The notes under the pieces are model-generated. The model was not told the DNA's origin and made no database searches. It worked only from the letters and a program-made list of their open reading frames with translations. 64,000 nt of DNA from Ignavibacteriae bacterium HGW-Ignavibacteriae-1. GTDB taxonomy: Bacteria > Bacteroidota > Ignavibacteria > Kapaibacteriales > UBA2268. The stretch spans positions 372,001-436,000 of the forward strand of contig PGYU01000001.1 of NCBI GenBank assembly GCA_002839825.1, written 5' to 3'. A program made the translations under genes and the position numbers. The first letter of the stretch is position 1. Each line of letters opens with the position of its first letter. Below, piece after piece: positions 39,382-56,631 of the stretch.

Positions 39382-40305
39382 ATGAAAACAGCACTATTAT
39401 TTTCAGGACAAGGCTCGCAATATGTCGGCATGTTGAAAGATGTTTACGAAAATTCATCGTTTGCTAAGGATTTAATCAACCATGCAAATGAAGTTGTCGG
39501 ATTCAATCTTTCGGAAATTTGTTTTGATGGACCGTTAGAAACTTTGAAAGAAACTCGATATACTCAGCCGGCAATATTTTTGCACTCGGCAGTGGCATTT
39601 AGTCTAATTGGTGAAAAACTTGATTTCTTGGGAGTGGCAGGGCATTCGGTTGGCGAATATGCAGCTTTGTATGCAGCAGGTGTATTGAGATTCGATGATG
39701 CAATAAGGCTTGTTGCGAAAAGAGGAAAACTGATGTTCGAAGCAGGAACGCATTTGCCGGGTACAATGTTTGCAGTTATCAATCTTGATGACGAAAAGCT
39801 CATTGATGTTTGCCGCGAATTAACCGAAAAAGGCGATGGAAATGTCGTTGTTCCAGCTAACTTTAATTCTCCCGGTCAGATTGTCGTATCGGGTTCGGCG
39901 GATTACTTGCGTCAAAATGTGGAAGCATTCAAAGCAGCAGGAGCAAGAATGGTGAAAGAACTCGTCGTAAGCGGTGCTTTTCATTCGCCTCTTATGGAAC
40001 CTGCGAAATTGGAACTTGAAGCAGAGATTAATTCGATTGAGTTCAACGATGCAAAAGTTCCTGTTTATGCAAATGTGACAGCAGCACCTGTTACTGATGC
40101 AACGCAAATTAAGCAATTGCTTATCAACCAGCTGATTTCACCTGTTCTATGGACGAAAACGATGGAGAATATGAATAAGCAAGGTTTTGAGGCGGTAATT
40201 GAAATTGGACCGGGCAATGTTTTGCAAGGTTTAGCAAAAAGAACAGTATCAGAATTTTCAATCGAAGGCATAGATAATTTTAAAGATTTGCAAAAATATT
40301 TATAA
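39382..40305 (+). CDS. fabD: Malonyl-CoA:ACP transacylase FabD
   Basis: FabD loads malonate onto acyl carrier protein. The nucleophile is S89 in GHSVGEYAAL, the partner His is H201 in GAFHSPLM, and FSGQGSQYVGM starts the protein. Length is 307 residues. fabH lies 13 bp upstream. Confidence 0.97.
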   Translation: MKTALLFSGQGSQYVGMLKDVYENSSFAKDLINHANEVVGFNLSEICFDGPLETLKETRYTQPAIFLHSAVAFSLIGEKLDFLGVAGHSVGEYAALYAAGVLRFDDAIRLVAKRGKLMFEAGTHLPGTMFAVINLDDEKLIDVCRELTEKGDGNVVVPANFNSPGQIVVSGSADYLRQNVEAFKAAGARMVKELVVSGAFHSPLMEPAKLELEAEINSIEFNDAKVPVYANVTAAPVTDATQIKQLLINQLISPVLWTKTMENMNKQGFEAVIEIGPGNVLQGLAKRTVSEFSIEGIDNFKDLQKYL

Positions 40306-40353
40306 TTGACAAAGATTTTCATTAATTTTATATTTTATAATTTTACAAATTTC

Positions 40354-41091
40354 ATGAAAGAAAAAATAGTAATAGTAACAGGCGGCAATAAAGGCATCGG
40401 TAGGGCAATTTCACACAAATTCGCCCAAATGGGTGCCAAAGTGAAAGTTTTTGCACGTACAATTCCTGACGATTTGGCAGGATTTGTTGATGGCAATTCA
40501 GAATTGCTGAACAATATCGAATTTTTTGCGGTAGATGTCTCAGATTTTGACTCTGTTGCCGAATCAGTTAACCAAATTGTCAAATCCGAAGGTAAAATTG
40601 ACGTACTTGTCAATAACGCCGGAGTGACTAAAGACAATTTGTTGATGCGTATGTCACCTGAAGATTGGGATTTCGTAATGGATATAAATCTTAAGGGTGC
40701 ATTCAATTGCTCTAAAGCGGTAATTAGGACTATGATGGGGCAGCGATATGGCAGAATCATCAATATCGGTTCGATTGTCGGCACAATTGGCAACCCCGGG
40801 CAAATCAATTATTCGGCGTCAAAAGCAGGATTAGTTGGATTGACAAAGTCTATGGCAAAAGAATTAGCATCACGCAATATATTAGTGAATTTGATTGCAC
40901 CCGGATATGTTGAAACCAACATGACCGATGCACTTAACGAAGAGCAAAAGGCAAAATTAGTCGAGAATATCCCATTGAGAAGAGTTGCAAACCCTTCTGA
41001 AATTGCAGATGTTGTTGCTTTTTTCGCCCAAGACGATTCGAAATACATCACAGGGCAAGTTTTGCATGTTGATGGTGGATTAGCAATTTAA
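40354..41091 (+). CDS. fabG: 3-oxoacyl-ACP reductase FabG
   Basis: FabG is the NADPH-dependent reductase of the fatty acid cycle. The cofactor motif TGGNKGIG is near the N terminus, LVNNAG follows, and the catalytic set is S140, Y153 and K157. The ATG at 40354 gives 245 residues, the normal FabG length. The frame is open upstream to a TTG at 40306, but this would add 16 hydrophobic residues with no homology, so it was not used. Confidence 0.96.
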   Translation: MKEKIVIVTGGNKGIGRAISHKFAQMGAKVKVFARTIPDDLAGFVDGNSELLNNIEFFAVDVSDFDSVAESVNQIVKSEGKIDVLVNNAGVTKDNLLMRMSPEDWDFVMDINLKGAFNCSKAVIRTMMGQRYGRIINIGSIVGTIGNPGQINYSASKAGLVGLTKSMAKELASRNILVNLIAPGYVETNMTDALNEEQKAKLVENIPLRRVANPSEIADVVAFFAQDDSKYITGQVLHVDGGLAI

Positions 41092-41138
41092 AAAATACAT
41101 TTTTAGATAATTTTTAATAACATATTTTGAGGTTCAAA

Positions 41139-41375
41139 ATGTCAGAGGATTTAAAATCAAAAGTAATTGATATCATTGTGAAAAAACTTGGAGTGGAACG
41201 CTCACAAGTTACAGAAGACGCTTCATTCACAAAAGATCTTGGGGCTGATTCGTTAGATACAGTGGAGTTAATTATGGAATTTGAAAAAGAGTTTGATATA
41301 ACAATCGAAGATAGTGACGCCGAAAGAATTCAGACTGTTGGCAATGTAATCAACTATCTAAACGAACGCAATTAA
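41139..41375 (+). CDS. acpP: Acyl carrier protein
   Basis: This 78-residue acidic carrier holds growing acyl chains on 4'-phosphopantetheine attached to S38 in the [10 protein letters not shown] motif. The ATG at 41139 is preferred over the in-frame TTG at 41127 since ACPs begin at MSE-type sequences. It sits between fabG and fabF as in many bacteria. Confidence 0.97.
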
Positions 41376-41397
41376 TTATAAATTAAGCGAGTAGCTT

Positions 41398-42657
41398 ATG
41401 TCAAAATATAATTTTCCTAAGGTAGTAGTTACCGGAATGGGCGCGGTTTCACCTATTGGCAATACACTCCAAGATTACTGGAGTGGTTTATTGTCAGGCA
41501 AAAGTGGAGCTGCACCTATTACAAAGTTCGATGCTACAGAATATAAAACGCAGTTTGCATGTGAAGTCAAAAATTATGAAGCGACTTTACACATTAGTGC
41601 CAAAGAAACCCAAAGAATGGACTTATTTACCCAATATGCCCTTTCCTCGGCTGCTATGGCAGTAGAAGATGCAAAAATCAATTTCGATAACTTGGACAGA
41701 AACCGAATCGGTGTTATCATCGGCTCGGGAATTGGCGGCATGTGGACATATCACCATCAACAACAAAATCTGTACGAACGTGATGGTAAGCCCGATAGAA
41801 TTTCCCCATTTTTTGTTCCGATGTTAATTTCGGATATTGCTGCCGGACACGTAGCAATCAGATGGGGCTTGAAAGGACCAAATTATGCAACCGTTTCCGC
41901 ATGTGCCACCTCATCGCATTCTATTGCAGATGCTTTGATGTTGATTCAAAGAGGCGATGCAGACATGATGGTTGTCGGTGGTAGCGAAGCTGTCGTTTGT
42001 CCGATGGGTGTTGGTGGCTTTAATGCCATGAAAGCCTTGTCAACTCGAAATGACGACCCTGCGACTGCAAGCCGACCTTTCGACAAAGACCGTGATGGCT
42101 TTGTGATTGGCGAAGGTTCAGGTATTTTAATTCTGGAAACATTGGAACATGCTCTCAACCGTGGTGCCGATATTTATTGCGAAATAGCAGGAATCGGGCT
42201 GACTGATGATGCTTTTCACATTACTCAACCGGCTCCGGGTGGTGAAGGTGCTGTTCGTTCTATGTCATTATGTATTAAAGATGCGGGATTAGTTCCGGAG
42301 GACATTGATTATATCAATGCTCACGGTACTTCGACTCCATTTAATGACAGAAATGAAACAGCTGCGATTAAAACTGTTTTCGGCGACCATGCCTATAAAT
42401 TGGTTGTAAGCTCCACGAAGTCCATGACTGGGCATTTGTTGGGTGCTGCAGGTGCTATCGAAGCTATCGCTACTGTGATGGCAATCAAAAATTCGAAGAT
42501 TCCACCTACAATCAATTATAATACGCCTGACCCCGATTGCGATTTGAATTACGCTCCAAACAAATTTGTCGAACGTGAAATTAAAGCTGCAGTCAGCAAT
42601 ACTTTCGGGTTTGGCGGGCACAATGCTTCTTTATGTTTCAAAGCATACGAACAATAA
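41398..42657 (+). CDS. fabF: Beta-ketoacyl-ACP synthase II FabF
   Basis: FabF elongates acyl-ACP. The Cys-His-His triad is C169 (SACATSSHS), H309 (NAHGTSTPFND) and H346 (KSMTGHLLGAAG). The start VVVTGMGAVSPIGN and the end NTFGFGGHNASL are typical. Length is 419 residues. rnc begins shortly after its stop. Confidence 0.97.
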   Translation: MSKYNFPKVVVTGMGAVSPIGNTLQDYWSGLLSGKSGAAPITKFDATEYKTQFACEVKNYEATLHISAKETQRMDLFTQYALSSAAMAVEDAKINFDNLDRNRIGVIIGSGIGGMWTYHHQQQNLYERDGKPDRISPFFVPMLISDIAAGHVAIRWGLKGPNYATVSACATSSHSIADALMLIQRGDADMMVVGGSEAVVCPMGVGGFNAMKALSTRNDDPATASRPFDKDRDGFVIGEGSGILILETLEHALNRGADIYCEIAGIGLTDDAFHITQPAPGGEGAVRSMSLCIKDAGLVPEDIDYINAHGTSTPFNDRNETAAIKTVFGDHAYKLVVSSTKSMTGHLLGAAGAIEAIATVMAIKNSKIPPTINYNTPDPDCDLNYAPNKFVEREIKAAVSNTFGFGGHNASLCFKAYEQ

Positions 42658-42667
42658 TGTGAATGAC

Positions 42668-43465
42668 ATGAAAAGTGAATTCCCTGATATTAAAAGTTCG
42701 CAAAACTTTAATATGGGAAGTTCAGATATTATTAAATCCGAACTCAAGGATAAATTCCCTGAGCTCGGGTTTTTAATAGGTGAAGTCCGAGAAAGTTTTG
42801 CTGAGATGCTTGGCGTTGAAATCGGCAGAATAGGCATATACGAAGAAGCTTTGACGCATCGTTCGTACCCTGTGCAAACTGAGTCTAAGTCTCCATCTTC
42901 TAATGAAAGATTGGAATTTCTCGGTGATGCAATTTTGGATATGATTGTAGCAGAGTATCTTTTTGTTTATTACAATATTGATAGCGAGGGAACTTTAACC
43001 AAGCTACGTTCAAGATTGGTGAACAAGCATTCATTAGCTATCTGTGGCAAGAAAATGAACATTGAAAGATTTTTGCGTATTAGCCACAGTGCTGCCAAAA
43101 CAGTTCAAGCAGGAAATGAAACAATCCTTGCTGACGCTATGGAAGCTATTATTGCAGCTATCTATCTTGATTTGGGTCTTGATGAAGCACGAAAATTCAT
43201 TATAAACAAAATGTTTCCTTTGATAATACAAGAAACATTACTTGACGATAACAATTACAAAAGCAGATTGTTGGAATTAGTCCAAGCCGAAGGCAAGAAA
43301 TCACCTGAATACATTGTTCTTGATGAAGATGGACCGCCTCACAATAAAAACTATACGGTTGCTGTCGTAATCGAAGGAATTCAGAGCGGCGTTGGTAAAG
43401 GTAAAAGTAAGAAAGATGCCGAACAAATTGCCGCAAAAAGAGCATTAATAAGTCATTATTTATAG
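42668..43465 (+). CDS. rnc: Ribonuclease III
   Basis: RNase III cuts double-stranded RNA in rRNA and mRNA processing. The signature NERLEFLGDAILD and the later acidic LADAMEAIIAAIYLD segment form the metal site. A double-stranded RNA-binding domain fills the last 70 residues. The ATG at 42668, 10 bp after the fabF stop, is preferred to an upstream start at 42566 that would overlap fabF by 92 bp. A GTG at 42659 is also possible. The 265 residues include a short N-terminal addition of about 45 residues before the catalytic domain. Confidence 0.95.
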   Translation: MKSEFPDIKSSQNFNMGSSDIIKSELKDKFPELGFLIGEVRESFAEMLGVEIGRIGIYEEALTHRSYPVQTESKSPSSNERLEFLGDAILDMIVAEYLFVYYNIDSEGTLTKLRSRLVNKHSLAICGKKMNIERFLRISHSAAKTVQAGNETILADAMEAIIAAIYLDLGLDEARKFIINKMFPLIIQETLLDDNNYKSRLLELVQAEGKKSPEYIVLDEDGPPHNKNYTVAVVIEGIQSGVGKGKSKKDAEQIAAKRALISHYL

Positions 43466-43487: not shown

Positions 43488-44927
43488 ATGGAAAAGATAA
43501 TAATTGAAAAAAGCAGACCCGGAAGACGAGGGTATTCTTTGCCAAAGCTTGATGTCGGAACTTCCGATATGCAAAGTTCCATTCCGGAAACGTTTTTACG
43601 CAAGGAAGCCGCAAAGTTGCCCGAGATTGCTGAAATTGAAGTAGCTCGTCATTTTGGTCGTTTGAGCCATTTAAACTACAACATCGAACAAGGTTTATAC
43701 CCCTTGGGTTCTTGTACGATGAAGTATAATCCTAAAATCAACGAAACTGTTGCATCTATGAGCGGATTTGCAGATTTACATCCCAATTCGACTGACGAGA
43801 TGTCTCAAGGTGCATTGGAAGTAATGTATAAATTAGGTGAAGTACTCAAGGAAATCTCAGGTATGCAAGGTGTTTCTTTGCAACCTGCTGCAGGCTCGCA
43901 AGGCGAATTAACTGGTATATTAATGTTTAGAGCTTATCACAAACATCGTAACGATACTAAAAGAACCAAAATCCTCATCCCAAATGCTGCACACGGCACA
44001 AACCCTGCTTCTGCGGCAATTGCAGGATTTGAAATCGTAGAAATTAATTCAAATGCCGAAGGTATGGTTGACATTGAGGATTTGCGCTCCAAAATTGGTG
44101 ATGATGTTGCCGGTTTCATGCTTACAAACCCGAACACTGTGGGTATTTTTGAAAAGGAAATCGAAACAATCGCAGAACTAATCAGAGGTTGCGGTGGTTT
44201 GATGTATATGGATGGTGCAAATTTGAATGCACTTTTGGGTATAGCACGTCCGGGAGATATGGGATTTGATTGCGTTCATATCAATTTGCACAAGACATTT
44301 TCCACTCCGCATGGTGGTGGTGGTCCCGGTTCAGGACCGGTTTGTGTAAGTGAACGATTAATTCCTTATTTGCCGATTCCACAAATATCAAAAAATAATG
44401 ATAAATACAAATTAGATTTCGGTAAAGAGCACTCAATTGGTCGCGTTCATACTTTCTTCGGAAACTTCGGAATGTTTATCAGAGCATATACATATATCAG
44501 TATGCATGGTAATGAAGCATTGAGGCAAATATCTGAAAATGCTATAATTAACTCGAATTACTTAAGAGCACTTATTAAGGATAATTATAAAATTCCATAT
44601 ACCGAATTCGGTATGCACGAATTTGTGATTTCTGCAGATTACCAAAAGGAAATGGGAGTAAGTGCCAAAGATATAGCCAAAAGATTGTTGGATTACGGTT
44701 TTCATGCCCCAACGATATATTTCCCGCTTATAGTTCACGAATGTATGTTGATAGAACCTACTGAAACTGAATCAAAGGAAAATATCGAGCAGTTTGCCGA
44801 TGTTATGAATAAAATAGCTCAGGAAGCAAGAGAAAACCCTGAATTAATAACTTCTGCTCCATTGAACACTCCAATCAGAAGAGTTGATGATGCACTTGCT
44901 GCCAGAAAATTGAATATTCGTTGGTAG
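43488..44927 (+). CDS. gcvPB: Glycine dehydrogenase (decarboxylating) subunit 2
   Basis: GcvPB is the C-terminal half of the P protein of the glycine cleavage system in organisms with a split enzyme. The pyridoxal phosphate lysine is in the INLHKTFSTPHGGGGPGSGP segment, and the N terminus KSRPGRRGYSLPKLDV is typical. Length is 479 residues, normal for a split subunit. The partner gcvPA and the H, T and L genes are not in this window. It is the last gene of the operon and ends at a terminator. Confidence 0.95.
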   Translation: MEKIIIEKSRPGRRGYSLPKLDVGTSDMQSSIPETFLRKEAAKLPEIAEIEVARHFGRLSHLNYNIEQGLYPLGSCTMKYNPKINETVASMSGFADLHPNSTDEMSQGALEVMYKLGEVLKEISGMQGVSLQPAAGSQGELTGILMFRAYHKHRNDTKRTKILIPNAAHGTNPASAAIAGFEIVEINSNAEGMVDIEDLRSKIGDDVAGFMLTNPNTVGIFEKEIETIAELIRGCGGLMYMDGANLNALLGIARPGDMGFDCVHINLHKTFSTPHGGGGPGSGPVCVSERLIPYLPIPQISKNNDKYKLDFGKEHSIGRVHTFFGNFGMFIRAYTYISMHGNEALRQISENAIINSNYLRALIKDNYKIPYTEFGMHEFVISADYQKEMGVSAKDIAKRLLDYGFHAPTIYFPLIVHECMLIEPTETESKENIEQFADVMNKIAQEARENPELITSAPLNTPIRRVDDALAARKLNIRW

Positions 44928-44956: not shown

Positions 44957-44985
44957 AAAAGCGTCCATTGTGACGCTTTTTTTTT
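44957..44985 (+). terminator. Rho-independent terminator after gcvPB
   Basis: A 9-bp stem (44957-44965 with 44972-44980), a 6-base loop and a run of T to 44985 lie about 30 bp after the stop codon. Confidence 0.88.
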
Positions 44986-45074: not shown

Positions 45075-48000
45075 ATGTCGAATTTAGTTCGTAGCATAAA
45101 ATATTTGATTCTTATATTAATATCTTTAAATTTTGTGGATGCAAATTCACAATTAATGACTGCACAACAATTTGGTAAGAATAAAGTTCAATATAGAAAT
45201 TTCAATTGGAAATACATCCAATCTGCAAATTTTGATGTTTATTATGATGAAGGTCATAAATACATTGCCGAATTTACTGCGTTATCAGCCGAGAAAGCGG
45301 TTGCATCTATCCAAAGCACTGTTAACTTCAGATTGACAGGTAGAGTTTCCATAGTGGTCTATGCGGCTCATAATGAATTCCAACAAACAAATGTGATAAG
45401 TAGCTTTATGCCTGAAGGAGTCGGCGGTGTTACGGAGTTATTCAAAAATCGTGTTGTAGTGCCATTCCAAGGAGATTATGCCCAACTTGACCACGTTATC
45501 CATCACGAGCTTGTTCATGCTGTGCTTAATGATATGTTTTACGGTGGCACTTTCCAATCTGCAATTACTTCGAGTTCGGGTTTCATGATTCCATTATGGC
45601 TGAATGAAGGTCTTGCAGAATGGGAAAGTTTAAGCGGAATGAATACCGAAACAGATATGTTTATGCGTGATTTGCTTTTGAGCGAAAAACTTCCGCCATT
45701 AGAAAGGTTGAACGGGTTTTTGGCTTATCGAGGCGGTCAAACATTTTATTGGTATGTAGCAGACAAATATGGCAAGGAAAAAGTCGGTGATTTTGTTAAT
45801 AAGTTGAAAATTCACAGAAATCTTGATATTGCATTCGAAAGTGCATTCCAGATGGATATGGAAAGCTTTTCCGAAAAATGGGAAAGGGATTTGAAGAGGT
45901 ACTATTGGCCTGATTTAGAATTATTTACCGATTTGAAAGATTTTGCAACTCAAGTGACAGACCATTTCAAAGAAAGATCTTACTACAATTCGTCTCCTGC
46001 GATTTCGCCCGACGGCGAAAAAATTGCTTTTATATCTGCACCCGGAGGGACTTTTGGAATATTTGTCCGAAATATTGATGATAAAGAATCAACTCGCGAA
46101 TTGGTTAGCAGTTTTAGGAAACAAGATTTTGAAGACTTGAATATGTTGACACCCGGCATTTCTTGGGACCCAACAGGGAAAAAGATTGCTATATCAGCGA
46201 AATCCGGTAGGGAAGATGCAATATTCATAATTGATGCCGAATCCGGCGATTATGATAAAATTACTCCCGGAATTATTTCAATTTCATCTGTTGATTGGTC
46301 AAATAGTGGGAATAAATTAGCTTTCATAGGTACTGAAATTAACAGAAGTGATATTTTCATTTACGATTTGAAGACAAAAAACCTCACCAATATTACTAAC
46401 GACATCTTTTCCGATAAATTCTTAAGATGGTCCGGTGATGATTCAAAGATATTTTTCGGTTCGGATAGGACAACCAATCTCTCTCCAATATTAGAATCAT
46501 TCAAAATGTGGAATTATGATGTTTATCAAACTGATTTATACGAATTGACAATAGCTGATGCTTCTATCAGAAGATTAACCTTTGATTCCGATAATGACAA
46601 GTCATCAGTGACTCCTGTTGCCGGTCAGGATAAAATCCTATACAGTTCGGATAAAAATGGCATCAGCAACGTTTATGTGCTTGATTTGAACACTTTAGAA
46701 TCAAGACCTATAACAAATTCAATCAATGCAATTACTCAAATAGCTTTGTCGAAAGATGCCTCAAAATTATTATTTACAACTCAGGTCAACGGTGGCTATG
46801 ATATTTACATGATGAGATATCCTCTTGAGAAAAAATTAGATTTTGACGAGTTGCCACTTACAAAGTTCAAGCAAAGCGAAAGCGACAAACAGAAGTTAAT
46901 TGATAATATTACAAGCGAGAATAGAAAATCGGAAGAAGAAAAGCTAGTTGGTTATGGTGATTTTGAAATAGGATTTGAACAGCAAAAATTAGTTTCTCCC
47001 AACATTGATGCTATGTTGAAACGTGATGAAATTATTAATAACGAAACTGAAGTAGAAATTTCGGATTTTAAAGAAAACGATTACAAAGTAGCTTTTTCTA
47101 CCGATTTAGTAATGGGAAACCCGGGATATAGTACATATTATGGAATGCAAGGCGTAACTCAAATGCTATTTAGTGATGTATTAGGCGACCATCAAATTTT
47201 TTTCCAAGCAAACATTTTGATGGATTTGCGAAACAGTCAGTTTTACTTCGCATATAACTACTTGCCTAAAGTGATTGATTATCAGATTAGTGCATATCAT
47301 ACTTCAGCATATGAGTTTAGGTTAGCTAATTTTTTCCGTAATTTCGGTACGGGTGTGAAAGCATCATACCCTATTACAATGTTTCAACGATTTGAAGTAG
47401 GTACAACTTTTATGTACTTATCGAGAGAGAATGTATTTGACCCGCAAAATATTCCGTCTGCTGAACGTTTACTTTTGGTACCTAATGTTCGTTTTACTTA
47501 TGATAATACATTATGGGGCTATTATGGTCCGCGGGACGGCTCGAGATTTTTTGTAGATGTCACTGCATCGCCTAAACTATCTGAGAACACAGGTGTAGGA
47601 TTTTTGACTTTTTCCGCAGATTATAGAATCTATTTCCCACTTGGCGAATGGATTAGTATTGCTGCAAGAACAGCCGGTGCTGCAAGTTTTGGTCCTGACC
47701 CGATTAATTTTTATATGGGTGGCACCGATAATTGGATAAATAGTAGATTCAAGAATGGGCGATTGCCTTTTAATGAGCCACAAGATTTTGCATTCATGGC
47801 TTTCCAGACTCCTCTGAGAGGGTGGCAAGTTGCCGAATTAACAGGTAATAAATATTTCCTTTCAAATTTTGAATTGCGATTTCCATTGCTGACTGCATTA
47901 GTAGCAGGTCCTTTGCCAATTCTCATATCAGGAATTAACGGTGCACTATTTTTCGATGTTGGCGGAGCGTGGAATAATGATTTTGTTTATGCCCAAAAAG

Positions 48001-48164
48001 ATGAAAACGGAAATTTACAACCTGCTAATCTTCTTATGAGTACTGGTGTTGGCATCCGAAGTTATTTCTTGGGAATACCATGGAAAGTTGATATTGCATG
48101 GCGAAATAATTATACGGTTTGGTCGGAACCATATTATTTGATTTCTATGGGCTTAGACTTTTAG
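45075..48164 (+). CDS. Peptidase MA-like / TolB-like propeller / Omp85-type barrel fusion
   Basis: A signal peptide (about 1-25) is followed by three parts. Residues about 30-270 form a gluzincin-type metallopeptidase with H144-E-L-V-H148 and the third ligand E178 in WLNEGLAEWE. About 300-610 are WD40/TolB-like propeller blades (YNSSPAISPDGEKIAFIS and similar repeats). About 680-1029 is a beta barrel ending in LDF, with FYMGGTDNWINSR resembling the Omp85 strand motif and repeated BamA-like strands. No POTRA domain is visible. The zinc site looks intact. The likely place is the outer membrane with the peptidase in the periplasm; the substrate is unknown. Confidence 0.82.
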   Translation: MSNLVRSIKYLILILISLNFVDANSQLMTAQQFGKNKVQYRNFNWKYIQSANFDVYYDEGHKYIAEFTALSAEKAVASIQSTVNFRLTGRVSIVVYAAHNEFQQTNVISSFMPEGVGGVTELFKNRVVVPFQGDYAQLDHVIHHELVHAVLNDMFYGGTFQSAITSSSGFMIPLWLNEGLAEWESLSGMNTETDMFMRDLLLSEKLPPLERLNGFLAYRGGQTFYWYVADKYGKEKVGDFVNKLKIHRNLDIAFESAFQMDMESFSEKWERDLKRYYWPDLELFTDLKDFATQVTDHFKERSYYNSSPAISPDGEKIAFISAPGGTFGIFVRNIDDKESTRELVSSFRKQDFEDLNMLTPGISWDPTGKKIAISAKSGREDAIFIIDAESGDYDKITPGIISISSVDWSNSGNKLAFIGTEINRSDIFIYDLKTKNLTNITNDIFSDKFLRWSGDDSKIFFGSDRTTNLSPILESFKMWNYDVYQTDLYELTIADASIRRLTFDSDNDKSSVTPVAGQDKILYSSDKNGISNVYVLDLNTLESRPITNSINAITQIALSKDASKLLFTTQVNGGYDIYMMRYPLEKKLDFDELPLTKFKQSESDKQKLIDNITSENRKSEEEKLVGYGDFEIGFEQQKLVSPNIDAMLKRDEIINNETEVEISDFKENDYKVAFSTDLVMGNPGYSTYYGMQGVTQMLFSDVLGDHQIFFQANILMDLRNSQFYFAYNYLPKVIDYQISAYHTSAYEFRLANFFRNFGTGVKASYPITMFQRFEVGTTFMYLSRENVFDPQNIPSAERLLLVPNVRFTYDNTLWGYYGPRDGSRFFVDVTASPKLSENTGVGFLTFSADYRIYFPLGEWISIAARTAGAASFGPDPINFYMGGTDNWINSRFKNGRLPFNEPQDFAFMAFQTPLRGWQVAELTGNKYFLSNFELRFPLLTALVAGPLPILISGINGALFFDVGGAWNNDFVYAQKDENGNLQPANLLMSTGVGIRSYFLGIPWKVDIAWRNNYTVWSEPYYLISMGLDF

Positions 48165-48205: not shown

Positions 48206-48229
48206 AGACGGAGTTCTACGGCTCTGTCT
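48206..48229. repeat. Imperfect hairpin between convergent genes
   Basis: agacggag (48206-48213) and ctctgtct (48222-48229) pair with one mismatch, just after the TPR lipoprotein stop on the minus strand. It could serve as a weak terminator, although no T-run is clear. Confidence 0.35.
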
Positions 48230-49864
48230 TTACTTTATTTTCTCTGCTAAATCTAACAATTTTTTGTCTTCAGGAAACAATTCTAAACCAATCTTCAGAT
48301 ATTTTTTTGCATTTTCTATGTCATTCAACTTCAAATATACCTCAACAAGATGCATACAAATCTCAGCAGATACAGTTTCAGTTTTTTCGTAGGATTTTAA
48401 CAAATACTCAAGAGCCTTATCATATTTCCCCATTTTGAACATTATCCAACCATATGTGTCGAGATAAGAGGCATTCTCGGGGTCTTCCTTCAAAGAAAAT
48501 TCTGACATTTTCAGAGCATTTTGCAAATCAATATTCTGCTCTGAAAGCGTATAAGCATAATTATTATTCAATAAAGCATTATCAGGCATAATCATCATTG
48601 CCTTTTTGTAATATTGATTCGATTTATCATAATCGTCCAACTCATGATAAATAAAGCCAAGATTAGACAATATATCGGCATTATCGCTATCTAACTTTGA
48701 TGCTTGTAACATTAAGTTTTCCGCAGTTTGATAATCATCAGTTTGCATATAAGCAATTCCGAGAAAATAATGATATCGCATATCATCTTCGCCGCCATCA
48801 AAATCTTTCAAAATTTCGATGACTCTGTTCCATCTTCCGGAAAACACATAAATTTGAGCAATTTCTACGGCATTGAATGATTCATTTTCAGCATTTTTAA
48901 GTAAAAAATCTAAGAACTTATCAGCTTTGACAGTATCGCCTATTTGTTGATTAACAGCTCCGCCCACAAATTGCATGAATTCTTCAAATTGGAATCTGTT
49001 ATCAATCTTATCTGCAAACCTTCTTGCTTGAGTGGTGTCAGTTTCGAAAGAATTCATCAAAAAATATGCACCGACTCGGGAATACATTGTTTTCACATCA
49101 TCAAAGTTCCACTTTTTCTCCGATGAAAATACCAAATCTATCGCACTCTCTATGTTCTTGTTCTCCAAATAAAAATCAAGCAGTACACTGTGTGGATTGA
49201 AATTATCAGGTGCTTTTGCAATCATTTTCATTAGAGTATTTTTTTGGCTTACAGTGTCTTTCAATGACTTGGAAATTTCCGATATTCGGTACAAAGTGAA
49301 CAAGTCTAATTTATCTTCGGGCACTTTAGAAAAGTACTCAAGTGCTTTGCGTTTGTCTGTATATTCATAGACACTAGCGATATAAATCAACAGTTCATCT
49401 TTGCCGAATTTTTCGTAACTATGCTCAAGAACTTGAATAGCTTCATCGTATCTTCTCAACGGAATGAGAATTTCAACTAATAATAAGTAAGCAGGTTCAA
49501 ATTCAGGGTCTAATTCAATTGCATTGCTGATTGCTTCATGGGCTAATTCAAATTTGTACAAATTTCTGTATGAATTGGCTAATGCAAGATAAATCCCCGG
49601 GCTTTGGTCGTATCGTAATGCTTCTTGAAATTCAATTGCCGAAAGAGCAAATTCGCTCTGATTTTGGAGTGTTGACCCACGGACGACGTGACTAATTGCA
49701 GCCTTTTGCAATTGGGTGGTGTCAACCTGCATTATGAAACCTTTGGCTAAAATATTCGATATGTCGTATTTAGTGGTTTTGGGTGAGCTTGAACAAGCAC
49801 CTAATAATACAAGTAAAGAAATCGAGAAGATGTTTAGGAATGTCAGTCTTTCAATATATTTCAT
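48230..49864 (-). CDS. TPR-repeat lipoprotein
   Basis: A canonical lipobox (LLGAC) places the lipid at C24. The remaining 520 residues are about ten to twelve TPR units (for instance AYLLLVEILIPLRRYDEAI and ADILSNLGFIYHELDDYDKS). Such proteins commonly act as scaffolds in the periplasm or on the outer membrane. It begins 49 bp after the end of the RHS gene on the same strand, with no promoter motif visible in that gap, so the two may share a transcript. Confidence 0.82.
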   Translation of the reverse strand: MKYIERLTFLNIFSISLLVLLGACSSSPKTTKYDISNILAKGFIMQVDTTQLQKAAISHVVRGSTLQNQSEFALSAIEFQEALRYDQSPGIYLALANSYRNLYKFELAHEAISNAIELDPEFEPAYLLLVEILIPLRRYDEAIQVLEHSYEKFGKDELLIYIASVYEYTDKRKALEYFSKVPEDKLDLFTLYRISEISKSLKDTVSQKNTLMKMIAKAPDNFNPHSVLLDFYLENKNIESAIDLVFSSEKKWNFDDVKTMYSRVGAYFLMNSFETDTTQARRFADKIDNRFQFEEFMQFVGGAVNQQIGDTVKADKFLDFLLKNAENESFNAVEIAQIYVFSGRWNRVIEILKDFDGGEDDMRYHYFLGIAYMQTDDYQTAENLMLQASKLDSDNADILSNLGFIYHELDDYDKSNQYYKKAMMIMPDNALLNNNYAYTLSEQNIDLQNALKMSEFSLKEDPENASYLDTYGWIMFKMGKYDKALEYLLKSYEKTETVSAEICMHLVEVYLKLNDIENAKKYLKIGLELFPEDKKLLDLAEKIK

Positions 49865-49913: not shown

Positions 49914-52900
49914 TTAACGTAGAAAACGAAAATAATTTTGATAAATGGGGCTAATATTTCTTAAATTCAAATCATCAAGTGTGTCGAATCTATATGGAAG
50001 TTCAATTTTGCTATCGTATTTCCATCTTGTGTCTAACTTATCATTGTAGTCTAAGCGCAACATTTTGGACATTACATTTGCAATGTTTTCATCCATCAAT
50101 CTTAAGAAATCATAAAAAACTTTAGGTACATGATTGATGCCTTTCGGTACATTGATATTTGGCTTGTACAGTTTAAATCCCGGGTTGAATATGTTTACTT
50201 GATGATGTGTGTTTGTTTCGTTTTCCAAAACTTCCTGCTGAAACATTTCAAAATTTTCTTGCAAACTATTCAAGGATTCTTTCCACTGGTCAATAGGTTC
50301 AGAAGCATCAACTACAAAATGAACATAATCATTTTGATGCATGATAGAGTCCATCATCACAAAATCAATGCAAATAGGAGAGATGTCTGTAACATTTGAT
50401 GGTAATTCATATTGCCCGCTTGATAATTGCGTGTTTATCAAATTGAGGATTCGTACAAATTGGTCTTCATCAAATTCTAAGAATTTCATCAAACTTAAAA
50501 TATTCTCGATTCGGTTGCTTGTGGTACGAGGAATCTTATGATAATCATAAATAATCGGCGACATATATGCTTTTTTGAATATGGAATCGCTAAGTTGCTC
50601 CATTCCGGTTGGAATGATTGCAAAAACAGGTTTTGTGTGGCTTGATGCTTTAACAATCAAATCAGTATCAATATCTTTCGGACTCAAGAAATTTAATTTC
50701 GTCGAATATTGGTTGAAATCGCTTCTTACTTTATAAGTCTTAAAATGATTATACTGTAGATTTAACTCCTCGTCAATCATTTCGCCAATCAAGTTGTCCC
50801 TTTTGATTTGCTCCACTATTTTACTATGCTTGTCAGCACCTCCAATTATCAATTTGGAATCAACATAATATTTGATTATGTCGCTCAAATTTGGTTTTGT
50901 TTCCATGTTTTTGAGAGGAGGCAGAAAAGATGAAACCCGTTCTAATCGCTTATTACGAGTGATGAAGATTTTGAAATCTCTATGGTAGAAATCCACTCCG
51001 TCGTAATACAAGCCTGTTTCGGGAATTGAAACAAAGTTTCTGAATTTATATAGTTGATTTGGAGATTTCGATTCATCAACCACGTCATAAGTGAAATATT
51101 CGCTATAAATAATTGAATCAGCGGATGAATAAGCGAGCAAATTTCCAAATGCATCTTTTATCAAATTATTGGGATTGCCTAATGAATCGAATGAAAACAA
51201 GAGTTCATGGTTTTCGAAAAGTTTGTAAAAATAGTTGCTTACTTGCAAACCATCACTATTCTTGGTCAGAGCGAAGAAATTTGGGGATTGACTTTCGATA
51301 GGTATATCAAAATAGTGGCTCGTATCTTTACCTATTGATTTGGACAAGATGCCTTTATTGTTATAACGGAATGTGATGAAATCACCGTTTGGCGCCGAAT
51401 AACCGATTAATTGGTCTTCGTTATTGTAAAAAAATCCGTATTGCTCATCGCCGTTAGCAATTGAACTAACATTTTCCGATTCATTAGTATAGAAAAACGC
51501 ATCGCCAATCTTATGTGGAATATTGCTGTTTGACCCATATTCGTATTTCAAATCTCCGTTGTCGATTCTTGATATAATTCTGCCCGTATTATCGTGATTG
51601 TATATCGTCGTCACATCTTTAGTCGCTACTTTAGTATATTCCGACCATTCGTTATAAGTTAAAGCAAGTAGCGAGGTATCTGTGTTACTCGAAATTTTCA
51701 GCAATCTGTCAGCATAGTCATAGTTGTAATTGTAAGATTTGCTCAGAACTCCTGAAGAGTAAATACTTAGGTTTGAGAGCCTGTTTTTCGAATCATAATC
51801 ATATCTAACTTCAAAATCTTCATCGTATTGAATACGGAATGGCAAATCGCTTTTGTTCTTATGGACAATGATTGTTTGATTAGCACCAAATCTTACAGTA
51901 TCAATAATAAAGTTTGTTGCTTTGTTGATATGAATCAGACTCTCGTCATTTACTGATAATGATTTCAAGTTATCAAGATTATCATATTGGTATGTAATAA
52001 TATTTTCATGACCATTTGAAAGTTTCTTTAAGCGATGCAACCTATCGGCTCTGTCATATTCATATGTTATGAGTTCTAACTCGGGATTTGTTCGTGAAAT
52101 AGTTTTGGTTTGCCCAATGTCAGTATAAGTATAATCAAATTCGTTGCCTGCTTGGTCAAATCGCAATTTCAATCGGTTCCATTCATCATATTCAAAAGAG
52201 TTCTCAAATCCTGTCGGGTAATCCTTAATAATCAAATTCGAGTTCCCATCATAAAAGTAGGAGAATTTTTTACCGGCTTTTTCGATGCTTTGCAAATTGA
52301 TTTTTGTATCGTAGGAGAAATCGTATTTCAATGAATTATAATCAAAAGACTCAAATTCGCCGATAGGTGAATTTTCAAAATTGATTACGTTTTTGTTTGA
52401 ATGACTGATTCGTGTCAAATTATGGTTTGCATCATAAAAATAATTATAAGTGCCGATTGTAGGAATTGAAACTGAAGTAACATTTTGATTCAAGTTGAAA
52501 TTGACTGTTGATTGGAGCACATTGTTTACACGTGTTTCGAATAAATTATTGCTTGAGATGATTGCAAATTCTACCCCATCAGACTTAATTGAACTCGGTT
52601 TCAACTGCTTTCCGTTGTAATTATACAAATACGTTAATGAACTGTTTTTGTAGTTGCTTATCCTGCCATACTTATCTTCGCGATAAAAATAATTTGTATC
52701 GCCGTTTTGAGTGGTGCTTATCCTATTGCCAATATTGTCATATTTTGAATTGCCGGTTCGTCCGATTCTGTCAGTTTTGCTTATAATTCTATAATAATTA
52801 TCCAATCGAAATGTTGTAGTATCCCCGGTTTTATCGTACATTTTGAAGTCGTTAGCTTGTTTGTTGTATCGGAAGTTAAGTTGGTAATCGTTTGGAGAAA

Positions 52901-55900
52901 TTATCGAAGTAAGGTTGCCTAATGCATTATATTGAAATTCGAAACTGTTTCCCATTGGTTCAGCAATACTTATGATTTCTCCAACTGAATTGTAGCCGAA
53001 TTGCAAAGAATCAAATCTATTGACCACGTATGTAATTGGTCGCCTTGCCTTATCATAACGAACCAAAAATTCCGCGTTAGTCCTATCAATAAAACTTGAA
53101 ATATCGCCGCTATTTTTATATGAATACAGTTCCGAAGTGCCATCGTGAAAGTTTTGTCTTAAAATTCTACCATTTTTATCTCGGAAATATTGGATTGAAT
53201 TATTATTGAAATCTGTTTTTTGGTTTGGCAATCCTATATGGTTATTGCTGAAATTGATTTTATAATCATTCAGGTATGCGTATGAACTCACAAACCCGAA
53301 ATTATCATAAGTCATTCTTGAAAAAGGTGTCCCATTCAAATCTACCGAAACAAGATTTCCGTTCAGATAGTTTGCCGATAAGTCAAAGTCATACATCTGA
53401 ACGCTCTTAATTCGATTATTGTTATTCGTAATCTTCAGCGTATCATGCAATTCATTTACAATTTGTGCCAAATTCAAATCACTATCATACGAAAAGTGCT
53501 TTGAGCTATTTGCATCATAGATTTTCGACAAAAGACCAAAAGAATTATATTCAAAATTTGTTGCAAATCCTCTTTCCGTTATTTTTTGGACTTTCTGCCC
53601 ATACTGATTATAAATATATCGAATGGAATCGCCACCGGAGAAACTAATTTTTGACAGTAAATCATTTTCATATTGAAGCGCGATGGATCTATTTTCGTTA
53701 TCTACAAAATTTGAAATATTGCCATATTCATTATACAATATTCCGGTCGAATTCATATTTGGGTTAATGATTGAAATCAAATTACCAATCGGGCTGTAAT
53801 TCAAAGCGTATCTGTTATTATCGCCATTTGTATATGAACTGATTAATGAGGAATTGGCATATGTTAGTCCAAATTTTAACCCATCAGCAAAAATTTCGCT
53901 CAATCTCTCCGCATCATCATAGTATATTCTTAACTCGTCGTTTGCGCCATTTGTCGCAGATATAAGTTTATAAAAGCCATTGAAATTATATGTATAATTG
54001 AAGTTGTTGTAGTAACTGATTGACATACTTCCGGGTGATGTCAACAATTTATGCGTATTGCCATATTGAGTGATTTGCTTTAATGAACCTAATGAATTAT
54101 AATCATAAGTTGTTTTTTGTTGTTCTTGATTTACAATTTCACTGACTTTGCCTAACTGGTTATATGAATAAGCTAAGAGATTTTGATTGTCTTTTTTGAT
54201 TTCTGAAAGCCTATTCATTTTATCATAAGTGAATGCCAATACATTCAGCCCCTTGTCAATACTTGATAATTTTCTGATGGAATTGTATTTATACTCTATT
54301 GGTGTGCCATTGTTGATTGATATAGATTCGGCAAGTCCATTCAAGTTATTGCCAAAACCAATATGAACTTGTCCCTGCTTGGTTAAAGCGATTAGATTTC
54401 CAAATAAGTCATAGTTGAAAGTAGCAATAGTTTGTGAATTGCGTATAACAGATTCGAGATTGTTTAAAATGCCATACTGAAAAACATATTGAACATTGGA
54501 TGGAGAGATATAGTTAGTCAGATTGGAAAAGGCATCATATTGGAATAGCTTTGTACCATTTGGGTTTGAATATGAGATAAGTCTTGATAATTTATCATAA
54601 GCAAACTTTTCTTGGAATCCTAAAACTGTTCTTTCGGTCATTTCATTATTCAGATTGTAAGTCAGGCTCGAAACTAAGCTATTACCATTATATTCTCTTA
54701 TCAAATTGTCTCTATCGTCATACTCGTATTTGTATTCTATATTATTGAAGTCAAGCAATGAGGCAAGTTTTCGATTTTTTTCATAGACTAATTGGGCTTG
54801 TGTAGCAATTGGAGTTTTGAAAATAATTGTATCGAAACTCATATAATCAACAATGAACTCGGGTAGGTTGCCGATTTTGAGTGATTTTGGTCTCATTGCC
54901 GAATCATATAAAAAACTGACTTCGATCCCATCATTAAATACGACTTTAGATAAATTCGAGCCATTGACATATTCAAATAGCTTTGAACTATTATTTGGGT
55001 AAGCAATTTTGGTGAACAATCCTTTGAAATTATTCTCGAACATATAAATAATCCTGTCCGGTTGGGTAAAAGAGGAAAAATTTCCGAATTGGTCATATCG
55101 GAAATCATACAAAATATCGTCCGAAAAGTAAATTCGAGTCGGATTTCCTCTGCTATCGTTATCAAATCTAATGAGTAGGTCATCAATTTCAAAACTTTTC
55201 AAGATGCCTTTGCTGTCGAAGTCAAAATCAAAACTTCTATTGCCACTCGTAATCGTATAGATTATGCCTGTTTGATTTCGCGTAAATTTCCATTGATTGG
55301 TTTCAGCATCTGTAAATTCCAATAAATTTCCAAAAGAATCATATGAGTACAGGGCTTGCCTATTCAGAGGATTGATTGACATTGTCAGTAAACCTAAATC
55401 GTTATAGAAAAATCTGCTTGTGGATTCGCCGGGATTTTCAATTGCTGTCAGTTCGTATTTATCATTGTAGCTATACAAAACTGTGGAACTGTTTGCTTTA
55501 GTGATTCGAGTAGTCCTGAAAAGGGTATCTGAATCAAATTTGTAAAAGCTGCCATTCGGCAAAATTACTTTAAACGCTCCTTTGGGTTTATTGCTTTCAA
55601 AGCTGTAATTTTCATTGTTGCCGATTGTTATATTTTTCACTGAAAGGTCTGATTCATATTCAACATTGATGCTGTTTCCGGCAGGATAAGTTATTTTGCT
55701 TAACAAGTTGCAATCATCGTACTCATACCTGTAAATCGAAGCATCAGGATAAGTGACTTTTATCAGATTATCTGCCTCATCATACTCATATCTTATCTCA
55801 AGAGTATCGCCAAATCTAAGTTTTGACAATTTTTCATTTGTGTAACTCAATGTCAGTTTGTTGCCCGATGGAAATAGAACTTGAGTCAATCTGTTTTGTT

Positions 55901-56525
55901 CGTATTGCAATTTGATTTCATTTCCGAAATTATCAACTATATTGCTGACATAATGATTTTCAGGCTCATTGAAGTGAAAATAGCAGGGTCCCGAATTTTT
56001 AATTTCATCGCGCAAAATACTTGAATATGAAAACTTACCATTGTCGAATTTGAGTTTGCCGGTAGCACCGTAAATAGGGTGGAAGGTAGAATCTACTTTT
56101 TGGAATAATTCAGTTTTGTCGTCCGAAAGCACGATCAAAACATTCTTATTGACATTGTTCGTGCTATATCTGATATTGTAGGAAAACTGCCATTTTGCTC
56201 CAAATCTACCATTGAAAGAACTAAGACTATTATAGGTGAATTTTGCATTTATCGGAAAGCCAATGTCATTACTTCTGAAATCGGTTCGTGAGTAAAGTAA
56301 ATTACCCGTCACAGTATTAACCAAAAGTTGCTCATGCTCTTTGTCAAGACTCGGTGCAGGGCTTACAAAGTGCTGAAAATGATACTTACCTCTTGTCATA
56401 GAGCCAATTTGTGGGTCAGAAATAATCGCATCACCATGATTAATGATAAAATTATCCTGCGACAAAAGTGCCTTATGTGCAAACAGGAAACTTAACAAAA
56501 ATAATATGGTATTCAACTTCATCAT
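49914..56525 (-). CDS. Secreted giant RHS/YD-repeat protein with unassigned C-terminal domain
   Basis: The protein has about 2,200 residues. A signal peptide (MMKLNTILFLLSFLFAHKALL) is followed by an RHS leader segment (VNTVTGNLLYSRTDF). Next come about 1,700 residues of YD repeats of the YDxxGNLxxI type, expected to form a beta-cocoon. The RHS core motif is degenerate (SIPETGLYYDGVDFYHR near DNA 51,000) and lacks the usual DPxG ending. The last 340 residues (DNA 49914-50935) match no family known to me and contain no obvious nuclease motif. The promoter at 56571-56600 excludes the upstream start at 56612. No immunity-like small gene follows. Confidence 0.85.
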   Translation of the reverse strand: MMKLNTILFLLSFLFAHKALLSQDNFIINHGDAIISDPQIGSMTRGKYHFQHFVSPAPSLDKEHEQLLVNTVTGNLLYSRTDFRSNDIGFPINAKFTYNSLSSFNGRFGAKWQFSYNIRYSTNNVNKNVLIVLSDDKTELFQKVDSTFHPIYGATGKLKFDNGKFSYSSILRDEIKNSGPCYFHFNEPENHYVSNIVDNFGNEIKLQYEQNRLTQVLFPSGNKLTLSYTNEKLSKLRFGDTLEIRYEYDEADNLIKVTYPDASIYRYEYDDCNLLSKITYPAGNSINVEYESDLSVKNITIGNNENYSFESNKPKGAFKVILPNGSFYKFDSDTLFRTTRITKANSSTVLYSYNDKYELTAIENPGESTSRFFYNDLGLLTMSINPLNRQALYSYDSFGNLLEFTDAETNQWKFTRNQTGIIYTITSGNRSFDFDFDSKGILKSFEIDDLLIRFDNDSRGNPTRIYFSDDILYDFRYDQFGNFSSFTQPDRIIYMFENNFKGLFTKIAYPNNSSKLFEYVNGSNLSKVVFNDGIEVSFLYDSAMRPKSLKIGNLPEFIVDYMSFDTIIFKTPIATQAQLVYEKNRKLASLLDFNNIEYKYEYDDRDNLIREYNGNSLVSSLTYNLNNEMTERTVLGFQEKFAYDKLSRLISYSNPNGTKLFQYDAFSNLTNYISPSNVQYVFQYGILNNLESVIRNSQTIATFNYDLFGNLIALTKQGQVHIGFGNNLNGLAESISINNGTPIEYKYNSIRKLSSIDKGLNVLAFTYDKMNRLSEIKKDNQNLLAYSYNQLGKVSEIVNQEQQKTTYDYNSLGSLKQITQYGNTHKLLTSPGSMSISYYNNFNYTYNFNGFYKLISATNGANDELRIYYDDAERLSEIFADGLKFGLTYANSSLISSYTNGDNNRYALNYSPIGNLISIINPNMNSTGILYNEYGNISNFVDNENRSIALQYENDLLSKISFSGGDSIRYIYNQYGQKVQKITERGFATNFEYNSFGLLSKIYDANSSKHFSYDSDLNLAQIVNELHDTLKITNNNNRIKSVQMYDFDLSANYLNGNLVSVDLNGTPFSRMTYDNFGFVSSYAYLNDYKINFSNNHIGLPNQKTDFNNNSIQYFRDKNGRILRQNFHDGTSELYSYKNSGDISSFIDRTNAEFLVRYDKARRPITYVVNRFDSLQFGYNSVGEIISIAEPMGNSFEFQYNALGNLTSIISPNDYQLNFRYNKQANDFKMYDKTGDTTTFRLDNYYRIISKTDRIGRTGNSKYDNIGNRISTTQNGDTNYFYREDKYGRISNYKNSSLTYLYNYNGKQLKPSSIKSDGVEFAIISSNNLFETRVNNVLQSTVNFNLNQNVTSVSIPTIGTYNYFYDANHNLTRISHSNKNVINFENSPIGEFESFDYNSLKYDFSYDTKINLQSIEKAGKKFSYFYDGNSNLIIKDYPTGFENSFEYDEWNRLKLRFDQAGNEFDYTYTDIGQTKTISRTNPELELITYEYDRADRLHRLKKLSNGHENIITYQYDNLDNLKSLSVNDESLIHINKATNFIIDTVRFGANQTIIVHKNKSDLPFRIQYDEDFEVRYDYDSKNRLSNLSIYSSGVLSKSYNYNYDYADRLLKISSNTDTSLLALTYNEWSEYTKVATKDVTTIYNHDNTGRIISRIDNGDLKYEYGSNSNIPHKIGDAFFYTNESENVSSIANGDEQYGFFYNNEDQLIGYSAPNGDFITFRYNNKGILSKSIGKDTSHYFDIPIESQSPNFFALTKNSDGLQVSNYFYKLFENHELLFSFDSLGNPNNLIKDAFGNLLAYSSADSIIYSEYFTYDVVDESKSPNQLYKFRNFVSIPETGLYYDGVDFYHRDFKIFITRNKRLERVSSFLPPLKNMETKPNLSDIIKYYVDSKLIIGGADKHSKIVEQIKRDNLIGEMIDEELNLQYNHFKTYKVRSDFNQYSTKLNFLSPKDIDTDLIVKASSHTKPVFAIIPTGMEQLSDSIFKKAYMSPIIYDYHKIPRTTSNRIENILSLMKFLEFDEDQFVRILNLINTQLSSGQYELPSNVTDISPICIDFVMMDSIMHQNDYVHFVVDASEPIDQWKESLNSLQENFEMFQQEVLENETNTHHQVNIFNPGFKLYKPNINVPKGINHVPKVFYDFLRLMDENIANVMSKMLRLDYNDKLDTRWKYDSKIELPYRFDTLDDLNLRNISPIYQNYFRFLR

Positions 56526-56570
56526 AAATAATAGACACAGACTGCTTTTAAATGTTTCATAATCAAAATT

Positions 56571-56600
56571 CAAATATAAATATAAAATTTTAGGTGCAAA
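56571..56600 (-). promoter_or_regulatory. Bacteroidota-type promoter for the RHS gene
   Basis: Minus strand: TTTG (56600-56597), 18 bp, TATATTTG (56578-56571), 45 bp before the ATG at 56525. It shows that the start lies at 56525 or 56522 rather than at 56612. Confidence 0.66.
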
Positions 56601-56631
56601 GCATCGTGACATAATATTTCATAAGAGCAAA

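Follow-up and report, generated by a model that had tools for sequence, protein, structure and literature searches.

A POTRA-less Omp85 protein of Ignavibacteria with a predicted zinc peptidase and a TolB-like propeller is old and strongly conserved

A three-part Omp85 protein

Within a 64,000-nucleotide stretch of the genome of Ignavibacteriae bacterium HGW-Ignavibacteriae-1 (assembly GCA_002839825.1, contig PGYU01000001.1, positions 372,001 to 436,000 of the forward strand), hereafter referred to as the window, an open reading frame (ORF) with an ATG start at positions 45075-48164 of the forward strand encodes a protein of 1029 amino acids (aa), in which ORF analysis and Pfam scans place a peptidase domain, a TolB-like propeller and an Omp85-type barrel one after the other. 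This protein, a variant with a peptidase of an Omp85 subfamily already described, is real, old and strongly conserved; as read from its sequence, a TolB-like propeller and a gluzincin peptidase take the place of the POTRA domains of Omp85 proteins. That it serves in the biogenesis and quality control of the outer membrane, with its protease in the periplasm and a probable link to TamB, is a reading whose chances we consider to be about even. The most useful new facts are the gene order around tamB and the existence of two lineages in which the active site of the peptidase has been replaced.

Domain composition and active site

All features of the three-part gene described here lie on the forward strand of the window. 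Residues 1-26 (45075-45152), judged by eye from the translation, likely represent a Sec signal peptide, which contains no cysteine and thus no lipobox. Residues 72-272 (45288-45890) match Peptidase_MA_2 with 41.1 bits against a cut-off of 32.4, and the same profile is matched at E 0.001 by all 26 diverse family members that were aligned. The first-pass annotation had proposed an intact gluzincin zinc site, i.e., H144-E-L-V-H148 together with E178, and these residues were located as described: the zinc-binding/catalytic HELVH motif spans residues 144-148 (45504-45518), while E178, the likely third zinc ligand, is part of NEGLAE at residues 177-182 (45603-45620). In the 26-member alignment H144, E145, H148, E178, G179 and E182 are invariant, as are E178, G179 and E182 in a set of 38 members, and the invariance of H144, E145, H148, E178 and E182 indicates that the zinc site is more than a chance occurrence. 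The combination of HExxH, a distal Glu and a Peptidase_MA profile is that of the gluzincins (peptidase MA), whose motif is intact in the translated window protein, for which peptidase activity is predicted. No PDB sequence was matched by the peptidase-domain profile at E up to 1, which leaves Pfam as the sole basis for assigning this fold.

Conservation is highest in the peptidase third, which is under strong purifying selection. Mean pairwise identity among 38 members is 0.52 in the peptidase, 0.43 in the propeller, 0.42 in the barrel and 0.18 in the linker, while the ratio of nonsynonymous to synonymous substitution rates (dN/dS), determined for two pairs within the genus, is ~0.06 for the whole gene and 0.024-0.025 for the peptidase part, these being rough values since dS is near 1 in one pair.

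The propeller covers approximately residues 303-590 (45981-46844). PD40 is matched from residue 303 onwards with 42.2 bits against a cut-off of 20.9, and the family propeller profile matches TolB structures in the PDB with a best E of 2.3e-29, which bears out the TolB-like blades noted on first inspection. TolB being the nearest propeller of known function, the protein might be viewed as the TolB of these bacteria, i.e., a Tol-Pal component fused to a barrel. No protein above the NCBIfam TolB cut-off was found in any of 15 genomes, so that no separate TolB counts against this view and, for want of a bona fide TolB in these genomes, the case against it rests on the low score. The window protein reaches 100.2 bits with the NCBIfam TolB equivalog, below its cut-off of 343.15, and many other proteins in these genomes (in which Pal and TolA were not searched for) match TolB equally or better, which makes a TolB identity scarcely credible.

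Following a variable linker (residues 591-665, 46845-47069), the barrel extends from approximately residue 666 to residue 1029 (47070-48161), ending in ...MGLDF with a terminal Phe; outer-membrane barrels often have ends of this kind. The Omp85 family PF01103 was not listed in the Pfam scan of the whole window protein. A scan restricted to the C-terminal third gave 38.5 bits (cut-off 24), and a search of the complete genome 39.8 bits. In single scans the barrels of 15 of the 26 members matched PF01103 at E 0.001, and no other Pfam family was matched by any of the 26 at this threshold. Alignment by hhalign of a profile of the 26 family barrels with a PF01103 barrel profile, built by taking the last 400 residues of each of 30 PF01103 proteins encoded in related genomes, gave a probability of 99.2% (E 2.8e-19, 286 columns), compared with 0.1% for each of two controls, i.e., one TonB-receptor sequence and the peptidase part of the family itself. 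In this alignment PLRGW (residues 913-917, 47811-47825), of which R915 and G916 are invariant in 38 members, is paired with SLRGY of BamA-type barrels and represents the counterpart of the Omp85 (V)RG(F/Y) motif. Between the GG and RG motifs the family carries an insert which BamA lacks and which starts with a conserved NWI, the conserved family motif GGTDNWIN (residues 882-889, 47718-47741) standing at its head. Among PDB sequences the barrel profile matched the POTRA protein 9ccg (E 4.1e-10) and, weakly, BamA (E 0.19).

No POTRA family was listed for the window protein at E up to 1, in scans of the whole protein or of its C-terminal part, and the earlier description of an Omp85-like barrel without POTRA is thus upheld by the PF01103 match, the hhalign probability and the absence of POTRA matches. 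Set against the features of the Omp85 superfamily, the protein has the PF01103 match and a (V)RG(F/Y)-type motif (LRGW, preceded by the insert), and it lacks POTRA, as do the POTRA-less subfamilies of PMC4104836; the usual definition, as worded in a passage of PMC11116518, includes at least one such domain. A TonB-receptor-type barrel was rejected on the basis of the hhalign control, which consisted of one sequence. An OprD-type barrel was rejected on the grounds that the 26 barrels matched no other Pfam family, no direct comparison with OprD having been made.

Distribution, descent and replacement of the zinc site

The genome to which the window belongs contains one full-length copy of the gene. 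Matches at E 1e-20 were obtained in 59 of 60 relatives (the exception, G032, is 88% complete), while at E 1e-10 all 197 genomes sampled from the class and 192 of 296 sampled from the phylum were positive, the class and phylum counts referring to genomes at least 90% complete and including some matches that are second copies. A tree of 88 members (FastTree, with long-branch warnings and no outgroup) broadly follows organism groups. Judged from these matches and this tree, the three-part gene is old in the phylum, has descended broadly along organism groups and is near-universal in the class. A chance or recent fusion is rejected in view of the presence of the gene in relatives, class and phylum and of the tree. 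The first-pass annotation had further held that the three parts normally act apart, a claim that finds no support, as a propeller combined with Omp85 constitutes a described subfamily and the three-part order is old in the phylum.

A copy that is 89% identical occurs in JAGXRP010000033.1, a record titled Desulfobulbaceae; the title looks wrong, and the gene has the same position as in G001, a genome of the window's genus. Seven loci (L086-L092) from other families of the phylum form a paralog group with an intact HExxH and a BamA-like (V/M)RG(Y/F/L) motif, without the NWI insert. One scan of viral contigs returned no relative of the three-part protein.

All four zinc-site ligands are present in 74 of 89 members and are replaced in the remaining 15, which fall in two places of the tree. 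Twelve of these belong to a clade with L026, a locus titled Bacteroidales, and three (L056, L057 and L058) to f7, a family of the window's order, in which R/R or R/L stands in place of H144/H148, E145 and E178 being kept. By hhalign, the 12-member clade can be aligned with the family along the entire chain (1014 columns, E 2e-135); in Pfam scans of its members one was without any listed family and another had PD40 only. Two losses of the zinc site, without loss of the chain, are probable, the direction of change in the 12-member clade being read from an unrooted tree. Proteolysis cannot be the sole function of the family, given that two lineages retain the complete chain with a replaced active site. 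Of the 104 phylum genomes in which the three-part gene had no match, 20 were searched with a profile of the type with replaced ligands, and none was positive; as this sample included no positive genome, the result shows little.

These replacements, i.e., two changes on the tree with retention of the whole chain, are what would be expected if the protein were mainly a scaffold, whose barrel and propeller do the work while the peptidase fold serves as a docking domain and catalysis is dispensable. The invariance of the motif in the 26-member set and the fact that the peptidase part has the lowest dN/dS argue against such a role, which we regard as distinctly unlikely.

In four loci (L162, L165, L168 and L169) the gene with replaced ligands is adjoined by proteins that by eye resemble a phosphatidylserine synthase and, in L162, also PorU.

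Gene order and the relation to TamB

TamB was found in all of 80 genomes by means of a family-built profile of 16 TamB proteins. Pfam TamB (PF04357), searched over 60 genomes, found 47 and missed that of the window's genome, which reached 58.1 bits with PF04357 in a separate scan. It is found on the same strand as the three-part gene, 2.1-2.6 kb upstream of it, in 22 of the 80 genomes (11 of 38 families), and in one further genome it is equally near but divergent; the same order also occurs outside the class, in families f40, f41 and f56. An ORF of 677-778 aa, the size of RNase R, lies between the two genes in 13 of 13 such loci read; it is RNase R by Pfam in L139, the one locus scanned, and the ORFs of nine further loci belong to the same BLAST cluster, while TamB was confirmed by Pfam in L144. 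Several gaps in the cluster measure only a few bases, e.g., 16 in L139 and 4 in L140. This gene order points to outer-membrane biogenesis rather than to a stand-alone protease, and the clustering with tamB suggests that the protein is a partner of TamB or works in the same pathway.

G087 and G263 possess, besides the tamB-rnr-three-part gene cluster, a second tamB that immediately adjoins a POTRA-type Omp85 gene (by Pfam), and the same holds, by coordinates only, for G316, which also carries the cluster; in G073 one of two tamB genes adjoins a POTRA-type Omp85 gene (loci L154, L155 and L185 cover G087, G073 and G263). The window's genome encodes four Omp85 proteins, i.e., a BamA-like protein of 806 aa with several POTRA domains, a POTRA-Omp85 of 770 aa, a patatin-Omp85 and the window protein.

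A number of observations weigh against the role proposed for the protein. Within the window's order, tamB is near the three-part gene in none of 26 genomes, including that of the window, whose own tamB is located at C40:171320-175867, on the same contig, ~241 kb from the three-part gene. We know of no part played by RNase R in outer-membrane assembly; one locus (L077) has an rnr-type gene and the three-part gene without tamB, another (L156, of G073) has TamB and an RNase R-size ORF without the three-part gene, and on these grounds operon membership may be incidental. Incidental, too, may be the fab neighbourhood seen in the window's order, where fabF is near in nine and rnc in eight of 21 loci read (by BLAST cluster). 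The separate 770-aa POTRA-Omp85 of the window's genome could serve TamB; it is a fair candidate for a TamB partner and argues against the window protein filling such a role exclusively. In Bacteroidota, moreover, TamL replaces TamA as the recognised TamB partner, according to a passage of PMC12045153. The same source reports tamL and tamB not to lie in one operon, and the position next to tamB could thus be taken by a different gene. Finally, AlphaFold2 models were poor for both the whole protein and the barrel alone, with predicted local distance difference test (pLDDT) values of 42.5 and 42.4 from five sequences each. The first-pass annotation had named a broken zinc site and a barrel of another family as outcomes that would tell against it; no such barrel was seen and the zinc motif is intact by sequence, while the models are too poor for a judgement of its geometry or of the number of barrel strands, which is 16 in the Omp85 superfamily.

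The protein might accordingly be a general outer-membrane protease and chaperone in the manner of BepA, with no special tie to TamB and with a cluster that reflects shared transcription only. Such a role is consistent with the retention of the gene throughout an order in which tamB is not nearby, with the presence of RNase R, which has no obvious tie, in the cluster, and with the peptidase being the most constrained third. That 11 of 38 families, some of them from beyond the class, preserve the tamB-side order, and that lineages with a dead peptidase retain the protein, speaks against it, and we consider it rather unlikely.

Comparison with known systems

The WD40-Omp85 subfamily, named by Heinz and Lithgow in 2014, has a TolB-like propeller and no POTRA, and was likened to a BamA-BamB fusion (PMC4104836). 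An N-terminal TolB-like propeller, an Omp85 barrel and the absence of POTRA are shared by the window protein. The main text of PMC4104836 never uses the word 'peptidase', and thus no zinc-peptidase domain is described there for WD40-Omp85; neither does its section on this subfamily mention tamB gene order. A passage of the same paper restricts conservation beyond genus level to BamA, TamA and the lipoprotein type, which does not match the class-wide presence of the family described here. No paper on the three-part architecture was found in the openly licensed literature. PF00149 is the calcineurin-like phosphoesterase family and not of the HExxH type. This family defines the 'Metallo' Omp85 subfamily of PMC4104836, which resembles the window protein in being named as a metalloprotease with an Omp85 barrel, but differs from it in the domain concerned (PF00149 versus HExxH).

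TamA and TamL, the partners of TamB, have in common with the family of the window protein an Omp85 barrel and, in part of the phylum, a position beside tamB (see passages of PMC4494059 and PMC12045153); a neighbouring tamB on the same strand within 2.7 kb is seen in the 22 of 80 genomes mentioned above and in none of the 26 of the window's order. The window protein differs in that it lacks POTRA and the lipobox cysteine, and has a peptidase and a propeller instead.

PlpD, a patatin-Omp85, likewise has an enzyme domain N-terminal to an Omp85 barrel, yet its hydrolase is of another fold, and it possesses POTRA and no propeller (PMC11116518, in part). A PlpD-like protein of 898 aa with one POTRA match, encoded at L182:2347-5040 on the reverse strand (C41), is a second enzyme-bearing Omp85 of the window's genome. 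By analogy with the older view of PlpD, the HExxH domain N-terminal to an Omp85 barrel could belong to a protease that uses its own barrel to reach the cell surface or the medium, for feeding or attack. However, the patatin domain of PlpD, long thought to be exported, was placed in the periplasm by experiment (a passage of PMC11116518), single-copy, vertical and near-universal presence is unlike that of an accessory weapon, and the neighbours are biogenesis genes; a secreted protease is thus very improbable.

Proposed mechanism and significance

The N-terminal domains of Omp85 barrels lie in the periplasm. On this basis, and by analogy with PlpD as described in part of PMC11116518, the barrel of the three-part protein would reside in the outer membrane, while its propeller and peptidase would face the periplasm. 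An outer-membrane protease tethered by its own barrel, as first suggested from the sequence, is plausible. The propeller might hold partners or unfolded clients, and the barrel or its edge might aid insertion. BepA is a member of the M48 family and a separate protein, with neither barrel nor propeller. As a periplasmic zinc metallopeptidase at the outer membrane, Escherichia coli BepA resembles the window protein, and by hypothesis the two share their way of working, in that the peptidase would remove or trim clients that fail assembly, as BepA does at the BAM complex (passages of PMC8423444). The whole protein would act with or alongside the TamB bridge in the building of the outer membrane. 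Bacteroidia-like genomes and one family of the window's order would have kept the scaffold with a dead peptidase, and this survival suggests that the scaffold function is primary and proteolysis an addition. A bolder proposal, which we put forward tentatively and consider rather unlikely, is that the protein represents a third kind of outer-membrane partner of TamB, ancestral in the phylum and existing beside a TamA/TamL-type pair, in which the propeller of a POTRA-less barrel receives TamB cargo and the zinc protease clears failed insertions.

In E. coli, outer-membrane assembly (BamA or TamA) and proteolytic quality control (BepA) are the work of separate proteins; if the proposed role is correct, the two would be joined in one chain across a whole class. 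To our knowledge, the outer-membrane partner of TamB is poorly known outside Proteobacteria, and TamB would gain a testable candidate. Nature also provides a comparison of scaffold and enzyme, in the form of the two lineages whose active site is dead. Should the tie to TamB prove wrong, a near-universal and strongly conserved envelope protein would still have been identified, for which no described function was found in the literature searched.

Neighbouring genes in the window

Upstream of the three-part gene, and on the same strand, NCBIfam names identify a fabD-fabG-acpP-fabF-rnc cluster (39382-43465), followed by gcvPB (43488-44927). Terminator-like hairpins on the forward strand lie between gcvPB and the three-part gene (44957-44980) and 3' of the latter (48206-48229), and the gene may be transcribed alone in the window; such sites are no commoner in the region than by chance, numbering 3 versus 2.1 (standard deviation 1.4) in shuffled sequences. 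Facing the three-part gene is that of a 544-aa TPR protein (48230-49864, reverse strand), whose start (LLGAC) resembles that of a lipoprotein on visual inspection. Further on, two genes downstream from the three-part gene, a protein of 2232 aa with RHS repeats and a DUF6531 match is encoded at 49914-56612 on the reverse strand. Elsewhere in the same genome, a 430-aa repeat protein (L180:24-1316, forward strand, C14) has an end that by eye resembles a type IX secretion sorting signal.

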